NCBI GenBank assembly: GCA_036268875.1
Contig: DATATI010000063.1
Coordinates: forward strand, 1 to 64,000
DNA from: Polyangia bacterium
GTDB lineage: Bacteria; Myxococcota_A; Polyangia; Fen-1088
Direction of reading: 5' to 3'
Length of the DNA: 64,000 nt
Below, piece by piece: positions 40,054 to 50,288 of the stretch (the first letter of the stretch is position 1; every line of letters starts with the position of its first letter). The notes beneath the pieces are model-generated. The model was given only the letters and a program-made list of their open reading frames with translations. It did not search any database and was not told the origin of the DNA. The position numbers and the translations under genes are program-made.

Positions 40054-41145
40054 TCAGAACTTCCGGATCGGCGGCTCGCCCGGCGACAGCGCCGGCGGGC
40101 CTTTGGGCACGGTTCGCCGCACGCGCGACAGGTTCAGATCGAGCTCGCTGATCTTGCGCACCATCACCGGCACGCGCGTTCCCGAGCGTAGCGACCGTCG
40201 CTGTGGCGGCTCGCGGCCGGACGCCGAGGGCGCGGTGGGATCGAGGCGGCGCGACAGGCGGCCCACCACTTCCACCACGTCGCCGGGAGCGATGTTGATC
40301 TCGGCGCCGAAGACCTCGCGGTCATCCAAGCGCAGGCGGGTCAAGAACGGATGATCCAGTTCCAGCAGCGTGGTGCTTTGAAACTGCACGCGTTCATCGG
40401 AGGGAAAGGGATCCAGCAGCATGCCGCCCGACACTTCGATCCAGATCGGCTCGTCGGTGCCGTCGTCCAGCAGAAAATCCAGGGCCGCTTCGTGGAAGAA
40501 ATCGCTGCTGACGAACGCGCCCTTGCGAAACCGGGCCAGCGACCACACGGTCTGCCGGCCGCTCAGCGCCGACACCGCCGTCCGCCGCGCCACCACCACC
40601 CCGCGCACCGCCACCGCGTGGCGATCGGCGATGCCGCGCAATTCGGAGATGCGATAGCGCCGCCGTCCGACGATCAAACGGTGCAGCCGGTTGGCCAGCC
40701 GCACGCCCAGCGGCCCTGACATCGCCGACAGCACGGTCGCCGCCGCCACCGCCGCCATCGCCATCCCCAGCTCGTCGCCGGCCATCGACAGCACGCCCCA
40801 CGCCGCCAGCCCCGCCGCGGTCGCCGACGTGGCCGCCGTCGCCAGCCGCACGCCGCGGGGGAACGAAATCCAGCGCGCGATCGGACCGCCGGTGCGTTGC
40901 AAGGCGATCGGCTCGCCTTCACTGGTGGAGCCGCCGCGCGAGAAGACGTCCATCGCGCGCCCCACCAGCGCGTTCAATCGCCGGCCGACCCGCGCCCGCC
41001 AGGTGGGCGGTGTCGGCGACAGCGGACGGACGAGATGGTGTCCGCTGGGACCGTCCCAGTCGGCCAGCTCATCGCGTTCCGGAACGACCAGATCGTCCAC
41101 ACGGCCCTCGCCTTCAATTGTCACACGCGAAGGTGGGGTTTGCAT
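40054..41145 (-). CDS. Membrane protein of unknown function (GIDE/OB-fold-like C-terminal part)
   Basis: 363 aa. Two hydrophobic segments (about 95-140, Ala-rich) follow a basic region. The rest is a soluble domain with VAVRGVVVARR, FFHEAALDFLLDDG and later GDVVEVVGRLSRR, reminiscent of GIDE-type or OB-fold domains. No catalytic motif. ATG at 41145 chosen because it is the first in the frame after a weak upstream run; ribosome site is poor. It is divergent from the multi-receiver operon, 89 bp away. Confidence 0.55.
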   Translation of the reverse strand: MQTPPSRVTIEGEGRVDDLVVPERDELADWDGPSGHHLVRPLSPTPPTWRARVGRRLNALVGRAMDVFSRGGSTSEGEPIALQRTGGPIARWISFPRGVRLATAATSATAAGLAAWGVLSMAGDELGMAMAAVAAATVLSAMSGPLGVRLANRLHRLIVGRRRYRISELRGIADRHAVAVRGVVVARRTAVSALSGRQTVWSLARFRKGAFVSSDFFHEAALDFLLDDGTDEPIWIEVSGGMLLDPFPSDERVQFQSTTLLELDHPFLTRLRLDDREVFGAEINIAPGDVVEVVGRLSRRLDPTAPSASGREPPQRRSLRSGTRVPVMVRKISELDLNLSRVRRTVPKGPPALSPGEPPIRKF

Positions 41146-41234
41146 GCGGGGAACACCGCAAACGCACCGGCGCAGGCCAGCCGCGATCGAAGAATCCAAG
41201 ACGATACTTATTTGAGATACAATCGTCTGCCCTC

Positions 41235-43022
41235 ATGGTGGAAAGCGACGCTGCCCCGCGGCCACTGGAAGCGTTGCGAAACGCGGCGCGCGGCGGCCAG
41301 GAACGATTTCTGGTGGGATTGTCCGACGCCACCGAGCGCCGCCGCTTCGCCGCGGCGCTGGGCACGGAAGGCTACGTGCTGGAGGTGGGCACCAACGAAC
41401 AGGCGATCACCCGCCTGGCCGACGAGTCGTTCGATCTAGCGATCATGGACCTGGACGATCCGGCGGCGACGCAAGATCTTCTGGCGGCCTCGCGCGAGCT
41501 GCGGCCATTTTCGGACATCGTGCTGGTGGCGGCCAGCGATCCGCAGCGCTGCGGCGAGACCTTCGGGCGCGAGACCGCCGCCGTGCTGCCGCGCCCGCTG
41601 CCCGAGGTCGAGGCCCTGCTGCGCGCCCACGTCAAACGGCTGGCTGGTTTCCGTCGCGCCCGCACCCGCGGCCTCCTGATCATGAACGCCTTCGCCGGCC
41701 ACCGCGACGAGTTGGTGGCGTCCGAGCCGGATCTGGCGCGCGAGCTGGACGCCATGCTGATCCAGGCTCGACAAGACCCGACCATCATTGTCATGGGCGA
41801 TGACGATCTGAAGGCCGCCGCCGGCGCTCGAACGGCAAGCGCCAGCACCCACCCCGACGCGGTGGTGGTCGGGCTGGAAGGCCGGCAGCTTCTGGACGCG
41901 CGGCTGGCCGAGGTGCGGGCCCGGGCCACCGGCGCGGCGGTGGTGATCGTCGACGCCGCGCCGACGAGCGAGCGCCTGCGCGACGCGCTTTACGGCGGCG
42001 TGCGCGCGTATCTGCCGCGGACGTCCCTGAATTTGCTCGGTCGGGTGGTGGCGTCGGTGTCCAAGCGCCGGCAAGGCGAGGCCATCGGCGTCAAGCTGAT
42101 CGAGCACCTGGCCAAGGTCGGCGTGCTGACCAACCAGGACACCGAACGCACGCCCGCCCCTCACCGCGACATCGACATCCGTTTGATCGCCGACGCCTCG
42201 ACGCCGCGCGCCCGCACACCGGTGGTGCCGACCGGGCACGAAGTCCTGGTGGTCGACGACGAGGCGGTGGTGCTGACCGTGCTGCGCGAGGCGCTGCGGC
42301 GCGGAGGTTTCCGCGTCACCACCGCCGCGTCGGCCGAAGAGGCCATCGACCTGATGCAAAAGCGCCGTTTCGATCTGGTGCTGACCGACAAGAACCTGCC
42401 CGGCGCGTCCGGCCTGGAGGTGCTGCGGCAGGCGCGCCTCCTGTCGCCGGCGCCGGCGATTGTTCTCATCACCGGGTACAGCTCGTACGACACGGCGGTC
42501 GAGGCGCTGGACATCGGCGCGCACGATTACATCGAAAAACCGATCCGCGACGTGGAAGACTTGCGCTTTCGCATCCGGCGCGCCCTGTCCCGCCGCGACG
42601 AACAGCTGGCGCGGCCGCGCATCACTCGCTCGGGCGGCAACGCCGGGCGCATCTTGCTGGTCGAAGTGGAAGGCACGCGGCGGCAGCTGCTCGCCGATTA
42701 CCTGGGCAAGACCTATCAGGTCACCGCCGCCAAGGACGGCGACGACGCGCTGGAGCTGATCAAGCACCAGCAGTACGATCTGGTGCTGTCCGATCGCCAC
42801 CTGTCCGGATCGTCGGGCCTGCGGGTGATCGAACACGCGCAGCGTTTGCTGCCCCACTGTGCGTCCGTGCTGTACACGGCATACCCGTCCTATGAATCGG
42901 TGAAGGAAGCGTTCGCCACCGGCGTGGACGCCTACCTGGTCAGGCCGGGCGACGATCTGAAAAAATTGGGCGACAAAGTCGCGGAAGCTCTCGGCGGTCG
43001 CGGCGGAATACTGTTAGGGTGA
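41235..43022 (+). CDS. Multi-receiver response regulator (three to four receiver-like domains)
   Basis: 595 aa, no DNA-binding or enzyme output domain. Residues about 25-140 and 160-315 look like degenerate receivers (DLDDP; VVIVDAAPTSERLRDALYGGVRAYLPR). Residues about 335-445 are a full receiver with VVDDE, TDKNLPG and Lys in EKPI. Residues about 472-585 are another with SDRHLSG but Arg in place of the Lys (VRPGDD). It would integrate or relay phosphate signals. It is the first gene of the ATP-grasp operon, 34 bp ahead of the double ligase gene. Confidence 0.8.
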   Translation: MVESDAAPRPLEALRNAARGGQERFLVGLSDATERRRFAAALGTEGYVLEVGTNEQAITRLADESFDLAIMDLDDPAATQDLLAASRELRPFSDIVLVAASDPQRCGETFGRETAAVLPRPLPEVEALLRAHVKRLAGFRRARTRGLLIMNAFAGHRDELVASEPDLARELDAMLIQARQDPTIIVMGDDDLKAAAGARTASASTHPDAVVVGLEGRQLLDARLAEVRARATGAAVVIVDAAPTSERLRDALYGGVRAYLPRTSLNLLGRVVASVSKRRQGEAIGVKLIEHLAKVGVLTNQDTERTPAPHRDIDIRLIADASTPRARTPVVPTGHEVLVVDDEAVVLTVLREALRRGGFRVTTAASAEEAIDLMQKRRFDLVLTDKNLPGASGLEVLRQARLLSPAPAIVLITGYSSYDTAVEALDIGAHDYIEKPIRDVEDLRFRIRRALSRRDEQLARPRITRSGGNAGRILLVEVEGTRRQLLADYLGKTYQVTAAKDGDDALELIKHQQYDLVLSDRHLSGSSGLRVIEHAQRLLPHCASVLYTAYPSYESVKEAFATGVDAYLVRPGDDLKKLGDKVAEALGGRGGILLG

Positions 43023-43056
43023 TGGCGTCCGCACGTCGTTGCGGCGACCAAGGTCT

Positions 43057-45291
43057 ATGAGAATAGCCTTCACCCACAATCTTCGGCTGACCGACAGCGA
43101 AGAAGAGGCCGAGTTCGATTCCGCCGACACCGTCAACGCCATCGCCGAAGGCCTGCGCGCCGGCGGTCACGAGGTCGAGAAGATCGAGGTCACCGGCCCG
43201 GCGTCGCGGCTGGCGGCGCGCATCGAATCGTACGGCCCCGACCTGATTTTCAATACAGCCGAAGGCCGGCGCGGCCGCGCGCGGGAGGCGTTTTACCCGG
43301 CGCTGTTCGAAGAGCTGGGATTTCCGTACACCGGCTCGGACGCCTACGTCCTGACCGTCACGCTGGACAAATGGCTGACCAAGCTGGTGCTGGGCGGGCA
43401 AGGCATCGATACGCCGCGCGGGAAGCTGCTGACGCCCGACGAGCTGAAGCGCATCAAGGACCCGGGCACGCTGGGTCTGGCGCTGCCAGTGATCGTCAAG
43501 CCGAACTATGAAGGCTCGTCGAAAGGAATCGGCGACGACGCGGTGGCGCGCGATCCGCGCGCGCTGGCCGAGCTCTTGCCGCGGGCGCTGCGCGCCTATC
43601 CGAACGGCGTGCTGGTGGAAGAGTTCATCGCCGGCACCGACGTCACCGTGCCGTTTTTGGAAGGCCGCGGTGACGAGGGGATCTTGCTGCCGGTCGATTA
43701 CGTGTTCGATCCAGGCGCCCGCAACCGCTTCAACATCTACGATTATCGGCTGAAATCCGCTGATTCCAGCAAGGTCCAGGTGCGCTGCCCGCCCGATCTG
43801 CCGCGCGACGTGGTGTCGCGGCTGCGCACCATCTCCAAGGCCGCGGGCCGAGCCGTCGGCCTGCGCGACGTCGGGCGCATCGATTTTCGGCTGGGCGAGG
43901 ACGGACGCATCTATCTACTGGAGGTGAACGCCCTCCCCTCGCTGGAACGGGGGGCCAGCCTTTTCGCGGCGGCGGCGCGCGAAGGACTGGATCATTCCGA
44001 GACCCTGGCGGTCATCGTGGAAAGTGCGGCCCGGCGTCAGGGGCTGGTGGTGAAACCGGGCGCGCGGCGCCGGCGTCCAGCCGAGCCCTTGCGCATCGGA
44101 TTCACCCACAACGTCAAGCGCGTCGACAGCAAGGGCGGCAACGACACCGAGGCCGAGTACGACGCCCCCGAGACCATCGACGCCATCCGCGACGCGCTGG
44201 AAAGTTACGGCCACCAGGTGCTGCCATTCGAGGCCACCGCCGAGCTGCCGCGCCAGTTGATGGAGACGCCGGTCGATCTGGTGTTCAACATCGCCGAGGG
44301 CGTGACCGGCCGCAACCGCGAGGCGGCGGTCCCGGCGCTGTGCGAATTGCTGGGCATCCCGTACACCGGCTCTGACGCCGCCACGCTGTCGATCGCTCTC
44401 GACAAGGCGCTGTCCAAGCGGGTGCTGATGCAGCACGGGATCCTCACCGCCGAATTTCAGGTGATGGAGACCGGGCGCGAGCGGCTGTCGCCCAAGCTCA
44501 AGTTCCCGCTGATCATCAAACCGAACCAGGAAGGTTCGTCGAAAGGTGTCAGCGCGTCGGCCTCCGTCGTCGACGACGACGCCGCCCTGCGCGCGGTGGT
44601 GAAGGAGCTCATCGAACGCTACCGCCAGCCGGCGCTGATCGAGGTTTACATCCCCGGCCGCGAATTCACCGTCGGTCTTCTGGGCGATCGTCGGCCGCGC
44701 GTGCTGCCGCCAATGGAGATCCTGTTCAAGGACAAGTCGAACCCGCGGCCGGTCTACGACTTTCAGATCAAGCAAGAGTGGGAAAAACATGTCAGCTATC
44801 AGTGCCCGGCCGATCTGACGCCGGTCGAGCTGAAGGCGGTCGAGCGGGTGGCGCGCGAGACCTTCGCCGCGCTGGACTGCCGCGACGTCTCGCGCGTGGA
44901 CATGCGCATGACCCCCAAGGGCGAGCTTTACGTCATAGAGGTCAACCCGCTGCCGGGGCTGACGCCGGGTTATTCGGATCTGTGCTTGATCGCGGCGGCG
45001 GCCGGGATCGAATACCGCACGCTGATCGGCGAGATTCTGGAAGGCGGCCTCAAGCGTCTGCGGGAAAAACGCCGCGAGGCCAAGGCCGCCGAGGGCAAGT
45101 CGCTGTTCCCGCTGGCGCCGACGGCGAACGGCGGCGCCACCAGCGCGGGCAACAGCAACGGCAGCAACGCCAACGGAAACGGAAATGGAAGCGGCAACAC
45201 CACCGGCGCTGCCGGCGACGGCAAGTCCGCGGACAAGCCACCGGCGGTGGCCGCCGCGCCGGGGCCCGTGATCATTCCGCCAACGGAATGA
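43057..45291 (+). CDS. Tandem D-Ala-D-Ala-ligase-like double ATP-grasp protein
   Basis: 744 aa made of two homologous halves (about 1-335 and 350-680). Each has NTAEGRRGR/NIAEGVTGR, FPYTGSDA/IPYTGSDA followed by LDK, the ATP-binding loop YEGSSKG/QEGSSKG, and the metal-binding end EVNALPS/EVNPLPG. The halves are close enough to be an internal duplication. The catalytic Glu-containing N-terminal motif of true Ddl is not clear, so I do not call it a D-Ala ligase. The C-terminal ~65 residues are low complexity (Asn, Gly, Ser, Ala). It likely forms peptide bonds between small molecules. Its stop overlaps the next start (ATGA). Confidence 0.85.
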   Translation: MRIAFTHNLRLTDSEEEAEFDSADTVNAIAEGLRAGGHEVEKIEVTGPASRLAARIESYGPDLIFNTAEGRRGRAREAFYPALFEELGFPYTGSDAYVLTVTLDKWLTKLVLGGQGIDTPRGKLLTPDELKRIKDPGTLGLALPVIVKPNYEGSSKGIGDDAVARDPRALAELLPRALRAYPNGVLVEEFIAGTDVTVPFLEGRGDEGILLPVDYVFDPGARNRFNIYDYRLKSADSSKVQVRCPPDLPRDVVSRLRTISKAAGRAVGLRDVGRIDFRLGEDGRIYLLEVNALPSLERGASLFAAAAREGLDHSETLAVIVESAARRQGLVVKPGARRRRPAEPLRIGFTHNVKRVDSKGGNDTEAEYDAPETIDAIRDALESYGHQVLPFEATAELPRQLMETPVDLVFNIAEGVTGRNREAAVPALCELLGIPYTGSDAATLSIALDKALSKRVLMQHGILTAEFQVMETGRERLSPKLKFPLIIKPNQEGSSKGVSASASVVDDDAALRAVVKELIERYRQPALIEVYIPGREFTVGLLGDRRPRVLPPMEILFKDKSNPRPVYDFQIKQEWEKHVSYQCPADLTPVELKAVERVARETFAALDCRDVSRVDMRMTPKGELYVIEVNPLPGLTPGYSDLCLIAAAAGIEYRTLIGEILEGGLKRLREKRREAKAAEGKSLFPLAPTANGGATSAGNSNGSNANGNGNGSGNTTGAAGDGKSADKPPAVAAAPGPVIIPPTE

Positions 45292-46400
45292 GACAGCGGC
45301 TGCGCGACCTGGGGTTTTCCGTCGGGAGATTCCCGGTCGGCCCGCACAACGCCATCACTGACGTGGGCGGCGTGCGCGTCGGCCACACCACCATCATCTC
45401 CGGCGACGGTCCGCTGGAGGTCGGCGAAGGCCCGGTGCGCACCGGCGTCACCGCCATCATCCCCACCGAAGCGGTGTACGAAAACCGCGTCGTCGCCGGC
45501 AGCTTTGTCCTGAACGGCGCCGGCGAGCTGTCGGGCCTGACCCAGGTCGCCGAATGGGGATTGCTGGAGACGCCGATCCTGCTGACCAACACGCTGGCGG
45601 TCGGCAAGGTGTCGGACGCGGCGGTCAAGTGGATGACCCGGCGGTTTCCCAAGATCGGCAACGACGAGGACGTGATCATTCCCATCGTCGGCGAGTGCGA
45701 CGACTCCTGGTTGAACGACGCCGTCGGCCGCCACGTCCGTTCCGAGCACGTCTACCGCGCCATCGAACAGGCCACCGGCGGCGCGGTCGACGAAGGCTCG
45801 GTGGGCGCGGGCACCGGACTTATCACCTGCGACTTCAAGGCCGGGATCGGCACCAGCTCGCGCCGGGTGGAGATGGACGCCGGGCCTTACATCCTGGGCA
45901 TCCTGGTGCAGTCGAACTTTGGCGTGATGCGCTCGCTGCGGGTGAACGGCGCGCCGGTGGGCGAGGTGCTGGAACGAAACTTCAAACAGCCGCGCCGCGA
46001 GCGCAACGCCGGTTCAATCATCACCGTCATCGCCACCGACGCCCCGCTGCTGTCGTCGCAGCTGGTGCGTCTTTGCAAGCGGGCGGCACTCGGCATCGGG
46101 CGCATCGGGTCGTTCGCCGCGCACGGCTCGGGTGAGATCATCGTGGGGTTCTCCACGGCGAACAAGGTCCCACGCCAGACCTCGAAGATGACCGCACAGC
46201 TGAGCGTGCTGCTGGACGAGGCCTGCGATCCACTTTATGAAGCCGTGGTCGAGGGCACGGAGGAGGCGATCTTGAACGCCCTGTGCATGGCCGACGAGAT
46301 GCGGGGCCAATCGGGACATCTGGCGCCGGCGCTGCCTCTCGACCGCCTGGCCGAGATCCTGCGCGCCTACGAGGCGGCGTTCGCGCAACAGTCGACCTGA
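45288..46400 (+). CDS. P1-family (DmpA/BapA-like) self-cleaving aminopeptidase
   Basis: 370 aa. Conserved pieces: DVGGVRVGHTTI near the start, GTGLITCDFKAGIGTSSRR, and the autocleavage site NAG-SIITVIATDAPL, where Ser243 would become the nucleophile after self-cleavage. In this Ntn-hydrolase family members cut N-terminal residues from peptides, often D-amino acids or beta-peptides. It overlaps the double ligase by 4 nt (ATGA), and the GshB-like gene follows 5 bp later. Confidence 0.9.
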   Translation: MRQRLRDLGFSVGRFPVGPHNAITDVGGVRVGHTTIISGDGPLEVGEGPVRTGVTAIIPTEAVYENRVVAGSFVLNGAGELSGLTQVAEWGLLETPILLTNTLAVGKVSDAAVKWMTRRFPKIGNDEDVIIPIVGECDDSWLNDAVGRHVRSEHVYRAIEQATGGAVDEGSVGAGTGLITCDFKAGIGTSSRRVEMDAGPYILGILVQSNFGVMRSLRVNGAPVGEVLERNFKQPRRERNAGSIITVIATDAPLLSSQLVRLCKRAALGIGRIGSFAAHGSGEIIVGFSTANKVPRQTSKMTAQLSVLLDEACDPLYEAVVEGTEEAILNALCMADEMRGQSGHLAPALPLDRLAEILRAYEAAFAQQST

Positions 46401-46405
46401 TTTTC

Positions 46406-47446
46406 ATGCGCATCTGCTTCGTCGTCGCCGACACCCGCACGCAGCAACCAAGCTATGCCGGCGTGTACCTGGCGATGGCCGCTCACCGGCGCGGCCACGA
46501 CGTGCGGTTCGTATCGGTCGAGAACCTGTCGTTCCTGGATGACAACAACGTGCTGGCCACCACCACCCGGGTGCGCACCGGCGACTATCAAAGCACCGCC
46601 GATTATGCGGCGGCGCTGGCGTCGGACGAGGCGGTCAGCGAGGAAGATACGCTGGGCAGCTTTGACGTGGTTTTCCTGCGCTACAACCCGGTGCGGGAGG
46701 CGGCGGGCGGCCCGCCCGCGCCGGTGATCGACTTTGGCTGGCGCTTGCGTCTGGGCGGCACGCTGGTGGTCAACGATCCGGAAGGCCTGCGCCGCGCCGG
46801 CAGCCGCATGTATCTGAGCGATTTTCCCGCCGACGTGCGCACGCGGACGCTGGTCTCGCGATCAAAGCCGCGCCTGAAAGAATTCCTGCGCGCCCTCGAC
46901 GGACCGGCGGTGTTGAAACCGCTGGCCCCGCGCGGCGGCGAGCGGGTGTTTTACCTGCGCCGCCGCCAGGTCTCGAACCTGAACCAGATCATCAGCACGC
47001 TGACCAAGGACGGCTACGCCATCGCCCAGGAATATCTGCCCGAGATCGAGCAGGGCGAAAAACGCCTGCTGTTGCTGAACGCCGAACCGATCCGCATCGG
47101 CGATCGGGTGGCCATCTATCGCCGGCGCAGCAGCCTGGGCGGCAACGGCGACGGCGGCCCCGCCCCGGCCATGCGCGGCAAGTGCGAGTTCGGCCCGGTC
47201 GAAACGCGCATCTGCGACATCATGCGGCCCAAGCTTCTGGCCGACGGTCTTTACTTCGTGGGCGTGGACATCGTCGGCGACAAGATCCTCGAATTGAACG
47301 TCTTCACCCCAGGCGGCATCCACTCGATCCACGAGCTTTACGGCATCGATGTGGCGGACATCGTGATTCGCGATCTGGAACGGCGGGTGCGGCTGCGCGC
47401 CGCTTATCGAACCACGTTCGATCCGGAAGCGGCCGACGTGGTTTAG
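46406..47446 (+). CDS. Glutathione-synthetase-like ATP-grasp ligase (GshB type)
   Basis: 346 aa. The order of motifs follows bacterial glutathione synthetase: FLRYNPVREA, LVVNDPEGLRRAGSRMY, AVLKPLAPRGGERVF, AQEYLPEIEQGEKRLLLLN, YFVGVDIVGDKILELNVFTPGG. It joins a carboxylate to an amine with ATP. No GshA is nearby, so the substrate is not necessarily gamma-glutamylcysteine. It ends 4 bp from the convergent propeller gene. The GshB-like label is for the fold and motifs, not a proven reaction. Confidence 0.85.
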   Translation: MRICFVVADTRTQQPSYAGVYLAMAAHRRGHDVRFVSVENLSFLDDNNVLATTTRVRTGDYQSTADYAAALASDEAVSEEDTLGSFDVVFLRYNPVREAAGGPPAPVIDFGWRLRLGGTLVVNDPEGLRRAGSRMYLSDFPADVRTRTLVSRSKPRLKEFLRALDGPAVLKPLAPRGGERVFYLRRRQVSNLNQIISTLTKDGYAIAQEYLPEIEQGEKRLLLLNAEPIRIGDRVAIYRRRSSLGGNGDGGPAPAMRGKCEFGPVETRICDIMRPKLLADGLYFVGVDIVGDKILELNVFTPGGIHSIHELYGIDVADIVIRDLERRVRLRAAYRTTFDPEAADVV

Positions 47447-47450
47447 CGCC

Positions 47451-50288
47451 TCAGATCGAAGGCGCGCCGCCGATTGGTACTCCGCCACCGACGGCACCGC
47501 CCGCTGCGGTGGGGAACGGGAAGCAAACGATGGTCGGGGGGACGGCGTCCAGGTACGGCACCGGGGTTCCGTCCTCGACGGCGCCGTCAAGAGCGCAATA
47601 CTGGTCGCTGCGAATGTGGGTCAGGCGTTCCTTGACCGCCGTGGCGTCGAGCGCCGTGATGACCAGTCCGTCGGCGCTGAGCTGCCAGCCTGTGCTGGCG
47701 TCGGCGAAGACCACGGTCAGGCCGATCGCCGTCGGTGGCGATCCTTCGGAGCAGGCGATCTGAGGGCCGACACTCAGACGCTCGGGCTTGAATGCGTTGA
47801 GGCTGCCGGCGAAGGTCGAGATCTGGCAGCGCGCGCCTATGCGGTCGATGCGGGCGTGCACATCCCCTTGGTCGTTCAGTCGGTACACGGCGATGGGGGT
47901 GGCGAACTCTTCGATGACGTTCAGCGACCAGGAATCGGGCGTCTGGCTGATGGCGTAAACGGAGGAATCGCCGAAAGCCAGGGCGCTACCGGCATTGGGC
48001 GCCGAGCTGGTCGAAACCGTGCGCACGATGTCCTCCGCCAGGTCGAACGTCACCTCCGACGTCAGCAGCTGATTGGCGACGGCGGTGATGTTCAGCCGGT
48101 GCGCGGCCGGGTTGAACACGTCCTGCGCCACGTTGTGATAACCCGAGTACGGCAGGAACAGTCGCTGATTGTCGGTGTCGAGGCGGATGCGCTGATCGTC
48201 GGCGACGCCCAGCCAGGACGAGACCAGGTCGGCGTTGAACTCGGTCCCGAGCAGCAGGTTGCCGATCTCGCTGGCGTCGTCGCGGTTGAACAGGGTCAGC
48301 TTCTGCAAATTCCGAGGGACGCCGCCATAGCTGAAGGCGACGGTCCCCGGTCCCAGCACGCCGTCCGCGGCCAGGATCAGCTGGTCGCTGGAGCCGGGCA
48401 TGACGAACTGGTTTCGCGCCTTGGGGAACGAGGGCGTCGTGAGATCGAGCATGATGACGTCTGACCAGTTCGGAATGTTCATCGGGTTTTGATAGTCGTA
48501 GTAGGCGCGGGAGATCATCATCCGGTCGTCCGAGAACAGCGTCGAATGACCGCCCGAATACGAGCTCCCGGCGCTGCGCTGTCGGGGGGTGGCTTGCGTG
48601 CCCAGCTTGGCGATCGAGTTGCCGATCAGCAGCAGCGTGTGCAGCTGCTCGCCCTGGTTGGTGAGGACGTAGAACTGACCGTGCTGGAACTGCAGATCGT
48701 CCTTTTGCTCGATCGAGCCGGCCACCTCGAGCGGCTTGCCGCTGAAGGTGAGGGAATCGACGTTGACGGCGCCCGCGCCCGGGTCCGCCATCTCGTAGAT
48801 CTGTTCATCCAGTTTGACGAAGTCGCCGGCGTCATAGCGATAGACCACGAACTGCGTCGACGCCTGATTGACGTAGGTCGGATACGACACGACGTTGGTG
48901 GCGTACTGGTCGCAGATATAGTCATGATAGGTGTACGTCGAGCAGGTCTGGCCGACCCGAACATAGATGTATTGGCTGACGGTCGGCGCCGCTTCCTGTA
49001 TGCAATCGAGCAGCGTCTTGCCGTTGCAAGAATAGTCGCCCTTGTTCGACTGCGGCGGGCGGTAGTCGGGATTGGGACGTTGCTCGTACTTGGGCGCGCA
49101 CGACTGCACCGAACGCGCCGGACCCTCGTGCGACAGCGCGCAGTAGGAATAGGTCTGGGTCTGCGTGCCCGTGAACACCGTACGGTTCACGTCGCGGCTC
49201 ACCACGACATAGCGGTCGCTGGCGCTGATGAACGGTTTGAAGTTCCTGGTGGTCGAGATGACGTCGCCCACGGCCAGCGTGGCGGCGGCGTCGACGGGGT
49301 TCTGGCCCGCGAAGGGATCGGTGTTGACCGGATCGTTGAGGAACTCTTCGTGCCAAGCGACCGTAAGCGCGGCGTCCCACTTGATCGCGGTGACGGCCAC
49401 GCCGGTGCTGGGGTTGTAGGCGCTCGCCAGCCCCGTGGCGGGCACGGGCGCGGCACCGCCCGTCGCGCCGCCGCTGGTCGCGGCCGGAGCGGGCGACGGC
49501 GTCGGCGCCGCGATCGGCGTCAACAGATTCGTGTAGACCACGACAGTGCTATCGAACAAGCGGGCGTCCTGAATGCTTTGCTGATCCAGCATGACCGCGT
49601 CGACGAAGTCGAAGCCCGTCGGGCTGACGCGGAAGCGGAGCAGAGCCGACTCACTGACGGATAGGCCGTTCACCAGCAGCACCAATTCGTTGCCCTGGTA
49701 GAAAAAGTACTTGGGCTGCCCGGGCAACTTCAGCGCGCAGCTCAGCACCGGCGTGGGGCCGTCGGTCTTCACGGCCAGGAGGCCGTGCCGCTGCGACAAA
49801 AAGATCGCCGTGTTCTCTTGATAGCCCACCAGATCGGGGCGAACGATGGTCGGGGCCGAATTGGAAGCGCCCGCCGCGTTCGCGCTGGGAACCTCGGGCC
49901 GCGGCGCGGGAATGCGCCCCTGGAAAAGAGGCGGCAGCGACTGGTCCTTGAGAATCTCGATCGGGTGGGTCCAGGTGATCCCACCAAGCGCGTCGGCCGT
50001 GGTCTGGAAGGCGGTGGCGTTGCTGATCGGGCAACGTTTGGCGGCGATCGGATCCAGACGGCTGACCTGGTCGACGAACGCCTGTTCCTTCATGACGGCG
50101 CCGTCGCCCGGCACGCGGACCAGGCTGCGGTAACTGACCGTGTAGTCGCTGCGGTCAATCGGCGTCTTGTCGCTGGGCTTCGATCCGCCGCCGCTGCCGC
50201 AGCCGGCGAGGCTGCCGGCCACTGTCATCCAGAGCGTTGCGCCCAGGGCGCGAAAGGTCGCACTCGTCGGTCTCGTTCGCGTCGCCAT
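47451..50288 (-). CDS. Large secreted beta-propeller lipoprotein
   Basis: 945 aa. Lipobox LAGC and then an SGGGS linker. The long body is consistent with the secreted C-terminal beta-propeller family (DRMMISRAYYDY, NWSDVIMLDLTTPSFP, GLLLGTEFNADLVSSW-like segment). A Cys-rich patch with SYCALSHEG is in the middle. No catalytic motif. AAGGAG 7 nt before the ATG at 50288 fixes the start. It is transcribed toward the ATP-grasp operon. Confidence 0.7.
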   Translation of the reverse strand: MATRTRPTSATFRALGATLWMTVAGSLAGCGSGGGSKPSDKTPIDRSDYTVSYRSLVRVPGDGAVMKEQAFVDQVSRLDPIAAKRCPISNATAFQTTADALGGITWTHPIEILKDQSLPPLFQGRIPAPRPEVPSANAAGASNSAPTIVRPDLVGYQENTAIFLSQRHGLLAVKTDGPTPVLSCALKLPGQPKYFFYQGNELVLLVNGLSVSESALLRFRVSPTGFDFVDAVMLDQQSIQDARLFDSTVVVYTNLLTPIAAPTPSPAPAATSGGATGGAAPVPATGLASAYNPSTGVAVTAIKWDAALTVAWHEEFLNDPVNTDPFAGQNPVDAAATLAVGDVISTTRNFKPFISASDRYVVVSRDVNRTVFTGTQTQTYSYCALSHEGPARSVQSCAPKYEQRPNPDYRPPQSNKGDYSCNGKTLLDCIQEAAPTVSQYIYVRVGQTCSTYTYHDYICDQYATNVVSYPTYVNQASTQFVVYRYDAGDFVKLDEQIYEMADPGAGAVNVDSLTFSGKPLEVAGSIEQKDDLQFQHGQFYVLTNQGEQLHTLLLIGNSIAKLGTQATPRQRSAGSSYSGGHSTLFSDDRMMISRAYYDYQNPMNIPNWSDVIMLDLTTPSFPKARNQFVMPGSSDQLILAADGVLGPGTVAFSYGGVPRNLQKLTLFNRDDASEIGNLLLGTEFNADLVSSWLGVADDQRIRLDTDNQRLFLPYSGYHNVAQDVFNPAAHRLNITAVANQLLTSEVTFDLAEDIVRTVSTSSAPNAGSALAFGDSSVYAISQTPDSWSLNVIEEFATPIAVYRLNDQGDVHARIDRIGARCQISTFAGSLNAFKPERLSVGPQIACSEGSPPTAIGLTVVFADASTGWQLSADGLVITALDATAVKERLTHIRSDQYCALDGAVEDGTPVPYLDAVPPTIVCFPFPTAAGGAVGGGVPIGGAPSI

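Follow-up and report, generated by a model that had tools for sequence, protein, structure and literature searches.

The closest described systems are ligases of the ATP-grasp type, the S58 aminopeptidases and the pathways of beta-lysine. MysD, which works in mycosporine synthesis, and the BacD-type L-amino acid ligases are Ddl-like/ATP-grasp enzymes that attach amino acids to small molecules; unlike the tandem ligase described here (hereafter DDL2), they are single-domain, and we know of no S58 partner for them. S58 enzymes (DmpA/BapA) are mainly known for their use as tools in work on beta-peptides and carnosine. Enzymes of this type act on beta-alanyl dipeptides (PMC9235088), and the characterised members treated in the literature consulted were studied for breaking down or forming beta-alanyl peptides, carnosine among them (PMC9235088, PMC9570944). 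As for beta-lysine, AblA and AblB form the pathway of N-epsilon-acetyl-beta-lysine, a known osmolyte (PMC12776343).

Compared with the D-alanine–D-alanine ligase (Ddl), DDL2 is alike in the fold of both halves, in the ATP/Mg residues and in the equivalents of Glu15 and Ser150, but it is a fused tandem with a peptidase partner, it has lost Tyr216, it carries a GSSKG loop and an AEFDS-like motif, and its host has other Ddl genes. The partner matches the S58 family (DmpA, BapA and the Pyrococcus D-aminopeptidase) over its full length and keeps the Ser nucleophile with its partner residues, but unlike those enzymes it is translationally coupled to a peptide ligase. With AblA/AblB the relatives of DDL2 share two activities, since they sit with KamA/LAM and GNAT genes, whereas AblA/AblB has neither ATP-grasp ligases nor a peptidase and no AblA- or AblB-type gene lies next to DDL2 in the DNA analysed here. 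In the open-licence literature, no description was found of the DDL2-S58 pair or of KamA with Ddl-like ligases.

Gene order and conservation of the ligase–peptidase pair

The window is the whole stretch of DNA that was analysed, 64,000 nucleotides of a Polyangia bacterium (assembly GCA_036268875.1, contig DATATI010000063.1, positions 1 to 64,000). Its four-gene locus is given in Table 1. The receiver gene ends 34 bp before DDL2, the DDL2 stop codon and the S58 start codon share ATGA in a 4-bp overlap, and 5 bp separate S58 from the GshB-like gene. The start of DDL2 is likely the ATG listed, rather than that of a longer TTG frame from 43039.

Table 1. Features of the locus, in positions of the window
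Feature	Position	Strand	Remarks
Multi-receiver protein	41235..43022	+	595 aa; reading frame and Pfam
DDL2, tandem Ddl-like ATP-grasp ligase	43057..45291	+	744 aa; last ~55 aa disordered
DDL2 half 1 (residues 1-328)	43057..44040	+	
DDL2 half 2 (residues 345-680)	44089..45096	+	
S58 (DmpA/BapA-type) aminopeptidase	45288..46400	+	370 aa; reading frame and Pfam
Codon of the predicted self-cleaving nucleophile Ser243 of S58, motif AG|SIITVIATDA	46014..46016	+	homology with DmpA-type enzymes, PMC9570944
GshB-like ATP-grasp ligase	46406..47446	+	346 aa; PRK12458-like, below cut-off

An earlier note, made from the letters alone, had read here two fused Ddl-like halves, a peptidase overlapping them by ATGA, a GshB-like ligase 5 bp further on and a multi-receiver regulator at the head, and the reading frames and domain searches bear this description out: Dala_Dala_lig_C is found twice in DDL2 (5e-64), the peptidase matches Peptidase_S58 (PF03576) over its full length with 378 bits against a cut-off of 23.9 (6e-113), GSH-S_N and GSH-S_ATP are found in the last protein (6e-35), and Response_reg occurs twice in the first (residues 337-444 and C-terminal). 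The N-terminal half of the multi-receiver protein is receiver-like and degenerate, and the protein is without an output domain. Relatives of the four genes occur in dozens of other genomes with the order kept and 44-88% identity, so the arrangement is beyond chance.

Of the 290 genomes covered by a class-wide search, about 93 have a full-length or nearly full-length DDL2. GTDB contigs, when scanned, gave 66 DDL2 loci, partly from the same genomes and including those of Myxococcus, Corallococcus, Archangium and Anaeromyxobacter. Outside the window the genes were called with a codon-usage caller, and most of the genomes are draft MAGs. At 59 loci, 3 kb or more of sequence was available downstream of DDL2. 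At 44 of these an S58 gene is present within about 6 kb, and in many cases it overlaps DDL2 or is no more than 50 bp away; near the DDL2 of the other 15 none was found. In several Myxococcaceae the two are separated by other genes. The pairing holds down to 44% ligase identity, and families that are far apart share 4-bp overlaps or very short gaps between the two genes (the window, L039, L052, L040, L091, L171 and L163). S58 orthologues that are at least 53% identical were all found in DDL2-bearing genomes (36 of 36) and nowhere else in the sample. HemB and RDD-protein genes are conserved upstream in Myxococcaceae; they look like housekeeping or family-specific neighbours and give no functional hint.

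The receiver gene, on the other hand, was seen only in the window's family and its vicinity, and a GshB-like gene behind S58 is a feature of nearly all members of that family but of none of the other loci examined. Since DDL2 and S58 stay together in relatives while these two genes are family-limited, the conserved unit is the ligase–peptidase pair with family-specific additions. That is to say, the four-gene operon that the earlier note took as the unit is found again within the window's family, with the GshB-like gene next to S58, but outside it the gene order in relatives speaks against such a unit, the receiver and GshB-like genes standing apart from the pair.

The GshB-like protein has both domains of GshB, but its scores of 167.6 and 163.6 bits fall short of the glutathione-synthase equivalog cut-offs of 272 and 299, respectively, and the host genome encodes a genuine GshB (380 bits) at another place. 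The host also carries a second GshB-like paralogue (G000:C41:72942-73958), 53% identical to that of the window and likewise below the GshB cut-off, which is present in many members of the window's family as well.

Several neighbouring genes may be recorded. A divergent gene upstream of the receiver gene (40054-41199, minus strand) is without a Pfam or NCBIfam match, and members of the window's family keep it beside that gene (L039, L040, L045, L048, L052). A large protein of 925-1026 aa, depending on the choice of start, is encoded at 47451-50228 on the minus strand and converges on the operon; Pfam and NCBIfam searches gave no match for it. At L091:10049-12267, an aspartoacylase/succinylglutamate desuccinylase-like gene, for another amide-cleaving enzyme, comes after DDL2 and S58.

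Residues and ancestry of the ligase and the peptidase

The AlphaFold model of DDL2 consists of two well-folded Ddl-like units (mean pLDDT 86) and a disordered tail. The model matches solved Ddl structures. One L-amino acid ligase, 3vot, matched DDL2 weakly. The ATP, Mg and acyl-phosphate residues of Ddl are invariant in half 2 of all 73 proteins aligned (one row incomplete); in half 1 the catalytic residues are kept in about 62 of the 73, some having been lost in about ten lineages, and in the window's DDL2 they are intact in both halves. The equivalents of Glu15 and Ser150 are present in both halves, the AEFDS-like motif being located at the Glu15 site, and this glutamate is the one that in Ddl (E. 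coli DdlB) binds the first residue by its amino group. Tyr216 of Ddl, in contrast, is absent from both halves of every one of the 73 proteins: the site is mostly T/S/N/H/Q in half 1 and L/Q/F/K in half 2, with no Tyr among the residues listed. In addition, the Ser-Ser loop of both halves reads GSSKG, with Lys where the host's Ddl-like genes have Val.

In the tree, half 1 and half 2 form two well-supported clades, both far from the host's Ddl. Half 1 is the sister clade of single Ddl genes adjoining PF14518 iron enzymes, and the half-2 clade includes single Ddl genes from KamA operons. Separate Ddl genes are located elsewhere in the host genome. From the loss of Tyr216, the Lys of GSSKG and the host's own Ddl genes, both halves are therefore predicted to be peptide ligases with a specificity other than D-Ala-D-Ala. 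An ordinary Ddl was rejected in view of the residues, the tree position and the presence of other Ddl genes. The fused protein nevertheless scores 330 bits against the NCBIfam D-alanine--D-alanine ligase cut-off of 243; it exceeds the cut-off because the scores of two domains add up, and automatic annotation is therefore likely misleading. The most divergent DDL2 (L164:6749-8752), located beside a KamA gene, has lost Lys144, Arg255, Glu270 and Asn272 in half 1, which is therefore probably a non-catalytic domain.

The nearest solved relatives of S58 are the Pyrococcus D-aminopeptidase, BapA and DmpA. In DmpA-type enzymes, the self-cleavage site places the nucleophile at the Ser before IIxVIATDA (PMC9570944), and this site rules out the Ser of GSGE as the nucleophile. 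The window's protein has the expected arrangement, a Ser nucleophile after Gly/Asn with Asn, Ser and Glu partners, and Ser243, Asn210, Ser281 and Glu283 are conserved in all 49 loci that cover these positions. As for the self-cleaving aminopeptidase of the earlier note, the family is confirmed, and from these four residues the enzyme would be expected to cleave itself and expose an N-terminal Ser nucleophile.

KamA, GNAT and MATE genes beside relatives

For single genes across the class that are related to the DDL2 halves, the neighbouring genes were called. These relatives recur as pairs of Ddl-like genes accompanied by KamA/LAM, GNAT, a histone deacetylase–GNAT fusion or a MATE exporter, and the half-1 relatives recur with the PF14518 enzyme. 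A KamA gene is present at about 12 of some 38 single Ddl-like loci, against a chance of roughly 1% or less per locus, which is an estimate that takes 1-4 copies per genome and treats related loci as independent. In family f27, DDL2 lies divergently beside a KamA-type radical aminomutase in all three DDL2 genomes, and this KamA is the only close copy of that type in each; the linkage probably goes back to one evolutionary event. In two genomes of family f26, a GNAT gene directly follows DDL2 (with a 4-bp overlap in one), and DDL2 abuts a MATE-methyltransferase-DdlB cluster, to which one genome adds glycosyltransferase and 2OG-oxygenase genes. Family f11 has KamA-Ddl-DdlB-MATE operons, whose single Ddl is nested in the half-2 clade (97/89, 99/99; focused tree). 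S58 was not seen in the KamA-Ddl operons sampled. The earlier note had stated that no carrier or precursor gene is nearby; this holds for the window, but in other families KamA, GNAT, methyltransferase, second-ligase and MATE exporter genes adjoin DDL2 or its half-2 relatives.

The KamA genes of f27, those of the f11 operons and an unlinked gene on contig C66 of the window's genome belong to one type in the KamA tree. By alignment, this type keeps CxxxCxxC, the PLP-lysine motif and the two Asp expected for lysine, which in lysine 2,3-aminomutase (Clostridium LAM) hold the side chain of the substrate lysine. The C66 protein scores 247 bits for the KamA subfamily, above the cut-off of 199, but 265 for the LAM equivalog, where the cut-off is 525, and for EpmB the type reaches 168 bits where 369 are required. 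It occurs in 85 of 93 DDL2 genomes and in 82 of 197 in which no full-length DDL2 was found (Fisher p about 3e-17), a co-occurrence that is not counted as proof because both genes descend vertically and the comparison is confounded by descent. Its presence in those 82 genomes means that it must have other roles or partners too. KamA is absent beside DDL2 in the window and in most DDL2 loci.

A number of further loci with Ddl-like genes were also observed. Operons of the order KamA/LAM, Ddl-like, Ddl-like, (GNAT-histone deacetylase fusion), GNAT occur in several Myxococcota (L152:1395-7037, L151, L148, L142) and look like synthesis of an acetylated beta-lysine peptide. At L122:5067-9198, a KamA domain and a Ddl-like ligase are joined in one 721-aa protein, followed by two Ddl-like genes. 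In five genomes of one family (L113, L114, L115, L166, L167), the gene for a PF14518 heme-oxygenase-like iron enzyme has as its neighbour a Ddl-like gene from the sister clade of half 1, possibly a small-molecule pathway. Ddl-like ligases with a methyltransferase and MATE, in most cases also with a GT4-type glycosyltransferase and a 2OG oxygenase, are found at L110, L137, L136, L165 and L184, and several copies have GNAT and a two-component system nearby; the whole is reminiscent of a natural-product cluster that lacks NRPS and PKS genes. On plasmid pTHIMO01 of Thioflavicoccus mobilis (L132:2557-8038), a Ddl-like ligase is accompanied by diaminobutyrate transaminase, SbnA-type, ornithine cyclodeaminase-like and KamA genes, and on rhizobial plasmids the neighbours of distant Ddl-like genes were uninformative.

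Proposed pathway, rival explanations and meaning

Our preferred reading, to which we give a probability of roughly 40%, is that DDL2 and S58 are a co-expressed pair for the synthesis and hydrolysis of a small non-ribosomal peptide, one of whose residues is a beta-amino acid made by KamA, probably beta-lysine. Judging from the relatives, a KamA-type aminomutase encoded elsewhere in the genome would first make a beta-amino acid, for example beta-lysine, from lysine or an amino acid like it. DDL2 half 2, together with half 1 where it is intact, would then activate a carboxylate as acyl phosphate and couple it with an amine, so that a di- or tripeptide with that beta-amino acid results; the fold and catalytic residues are those described above, and the substrates are suggested by the neighbours of relatives. 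The self-cleaved S58 would release the N-terminal beta- (or D-) residue by hydrolysing the resulting peptide bond, as its family and residues suggest, so that the peptide pool is trimmed or recycled. Members of the window's family may have two additional features, extension of the peptide by another residue through the GshB-like ligase and a link of expression or activity to a phosphorelay through the receiver protein. Ligase and hydrolase may be made together for turnover, for editing, or because the peptide is a store or osmolyte; the last is a reasonable first idea, since N-epsilon-acetyl-beta-lysine is a known osmolyte (PMC12776343). The general proposal of making and trimming a small peptide, already raised in the earlier note, remains the best reading given the non-D-Ala residues and the ligase–peptidase pairing.

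Several observations weigh against the beta-peptide: KamA adjoins DDL2 neither in the window nor in most other loci, its type scores far under the LAM cut-off and also occurs in genomes where no full-length DDL2 was found, S58 was missing near DDL2 in 15 of 59 loci and from the KamA-Ddl operons sampled, and half 1 is degenerate in about ten lineages. S58 enzymes also cut D- and L-residues, so a beta-residue is not forced. A somewhat less likely reading is that DDL2 makes a di- or tripeptide of D- or alpha-amino acids (an osmolyte, signal or store) independently of KamA, and that S58 recycles it as a D-aminopeptidase. The Ddl ancestry of both halves, the annotation of the nearest solved S58 as a D-aminopeptidase and the lack of KamA near most DDL2 loci agree with such a peptide, while the loss of Tyr216 from both halves and the linkage of full DDL2 and of half-2-derived Ddl genes with one type of KamA, seen in two separate families, speak for the beta-peptide. 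A spare or regulatory cell-wall D-Ala-D-Ala ligase, made on envelope signals, would suit the NCBIfam score and the receivers or kinases that adjoin DDL2 in several families; we hold it to be very improbable in view of the separate Ddl genes, the missing Tyr216, the Lys of GSSKG against Val in the host and the distance in the tree, and an aminopeptidase partner would be unexpected for it.

ATP-grasps are also known as protein modifiers, and in other bacteria the KamA-type enzyme EpmB supplies beta-lysine for the modification of EF-P. DDL2 might thus modify a protein or tRNA terminus (cf. RimK-type ATP-grasps and EpmA/EpmB beta-lysylation), with S58 reversing it, but this is improbable: S58 enzymes act on short peptides, the KamA type misses the EpmB cut-off, and the MATE, GNAT, methyltransferase and 2OG oxygenase neighbours of relatives fit small-molecule pathways. 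The view to which we give least credence holds that the genes are neighbours by descent only and catalyse unrelated reactions. The 15 loci without a nearby S58 and the intervening genes of several Myxococcaceae could be so explained, but genes that overlap or nearly touch are seen again in distant families, and every sampled genome with the close S58 orthologue also has DDL2.

In summary, many predatory soil bacteria of the Myxococcota have a DDL2 that is usually coupled to S58, which suggests an undescribed make-and-break pathway for a small unusual peptide. We propose, tentatively, a widespread myxobacterial pathway in which KamA-fed fused Ddl-like ligases make a beta-amino-acid peptide and a dedicated S58 beta-aminopeptidase dismantles it. 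Because DDL2 is liable to be annotated as a D-Ala-D-Ala ligase, a pathway of about a third of the sampled genomes of the class could go unnoticed. Its presence in cultured Myxococcus, Corallococcus and Anaeromyxobacter makes gene deletion and metabolomics feasible, and the conserved, translationally coupled ligase makes the natural substrate of S58 directly testable. If the proposal is true, the S58 enzymes would gain a natural biosynthetic partner, and with it a natural substrate, and a new class of non-ribosomal beta-peptide metabolite would be added.
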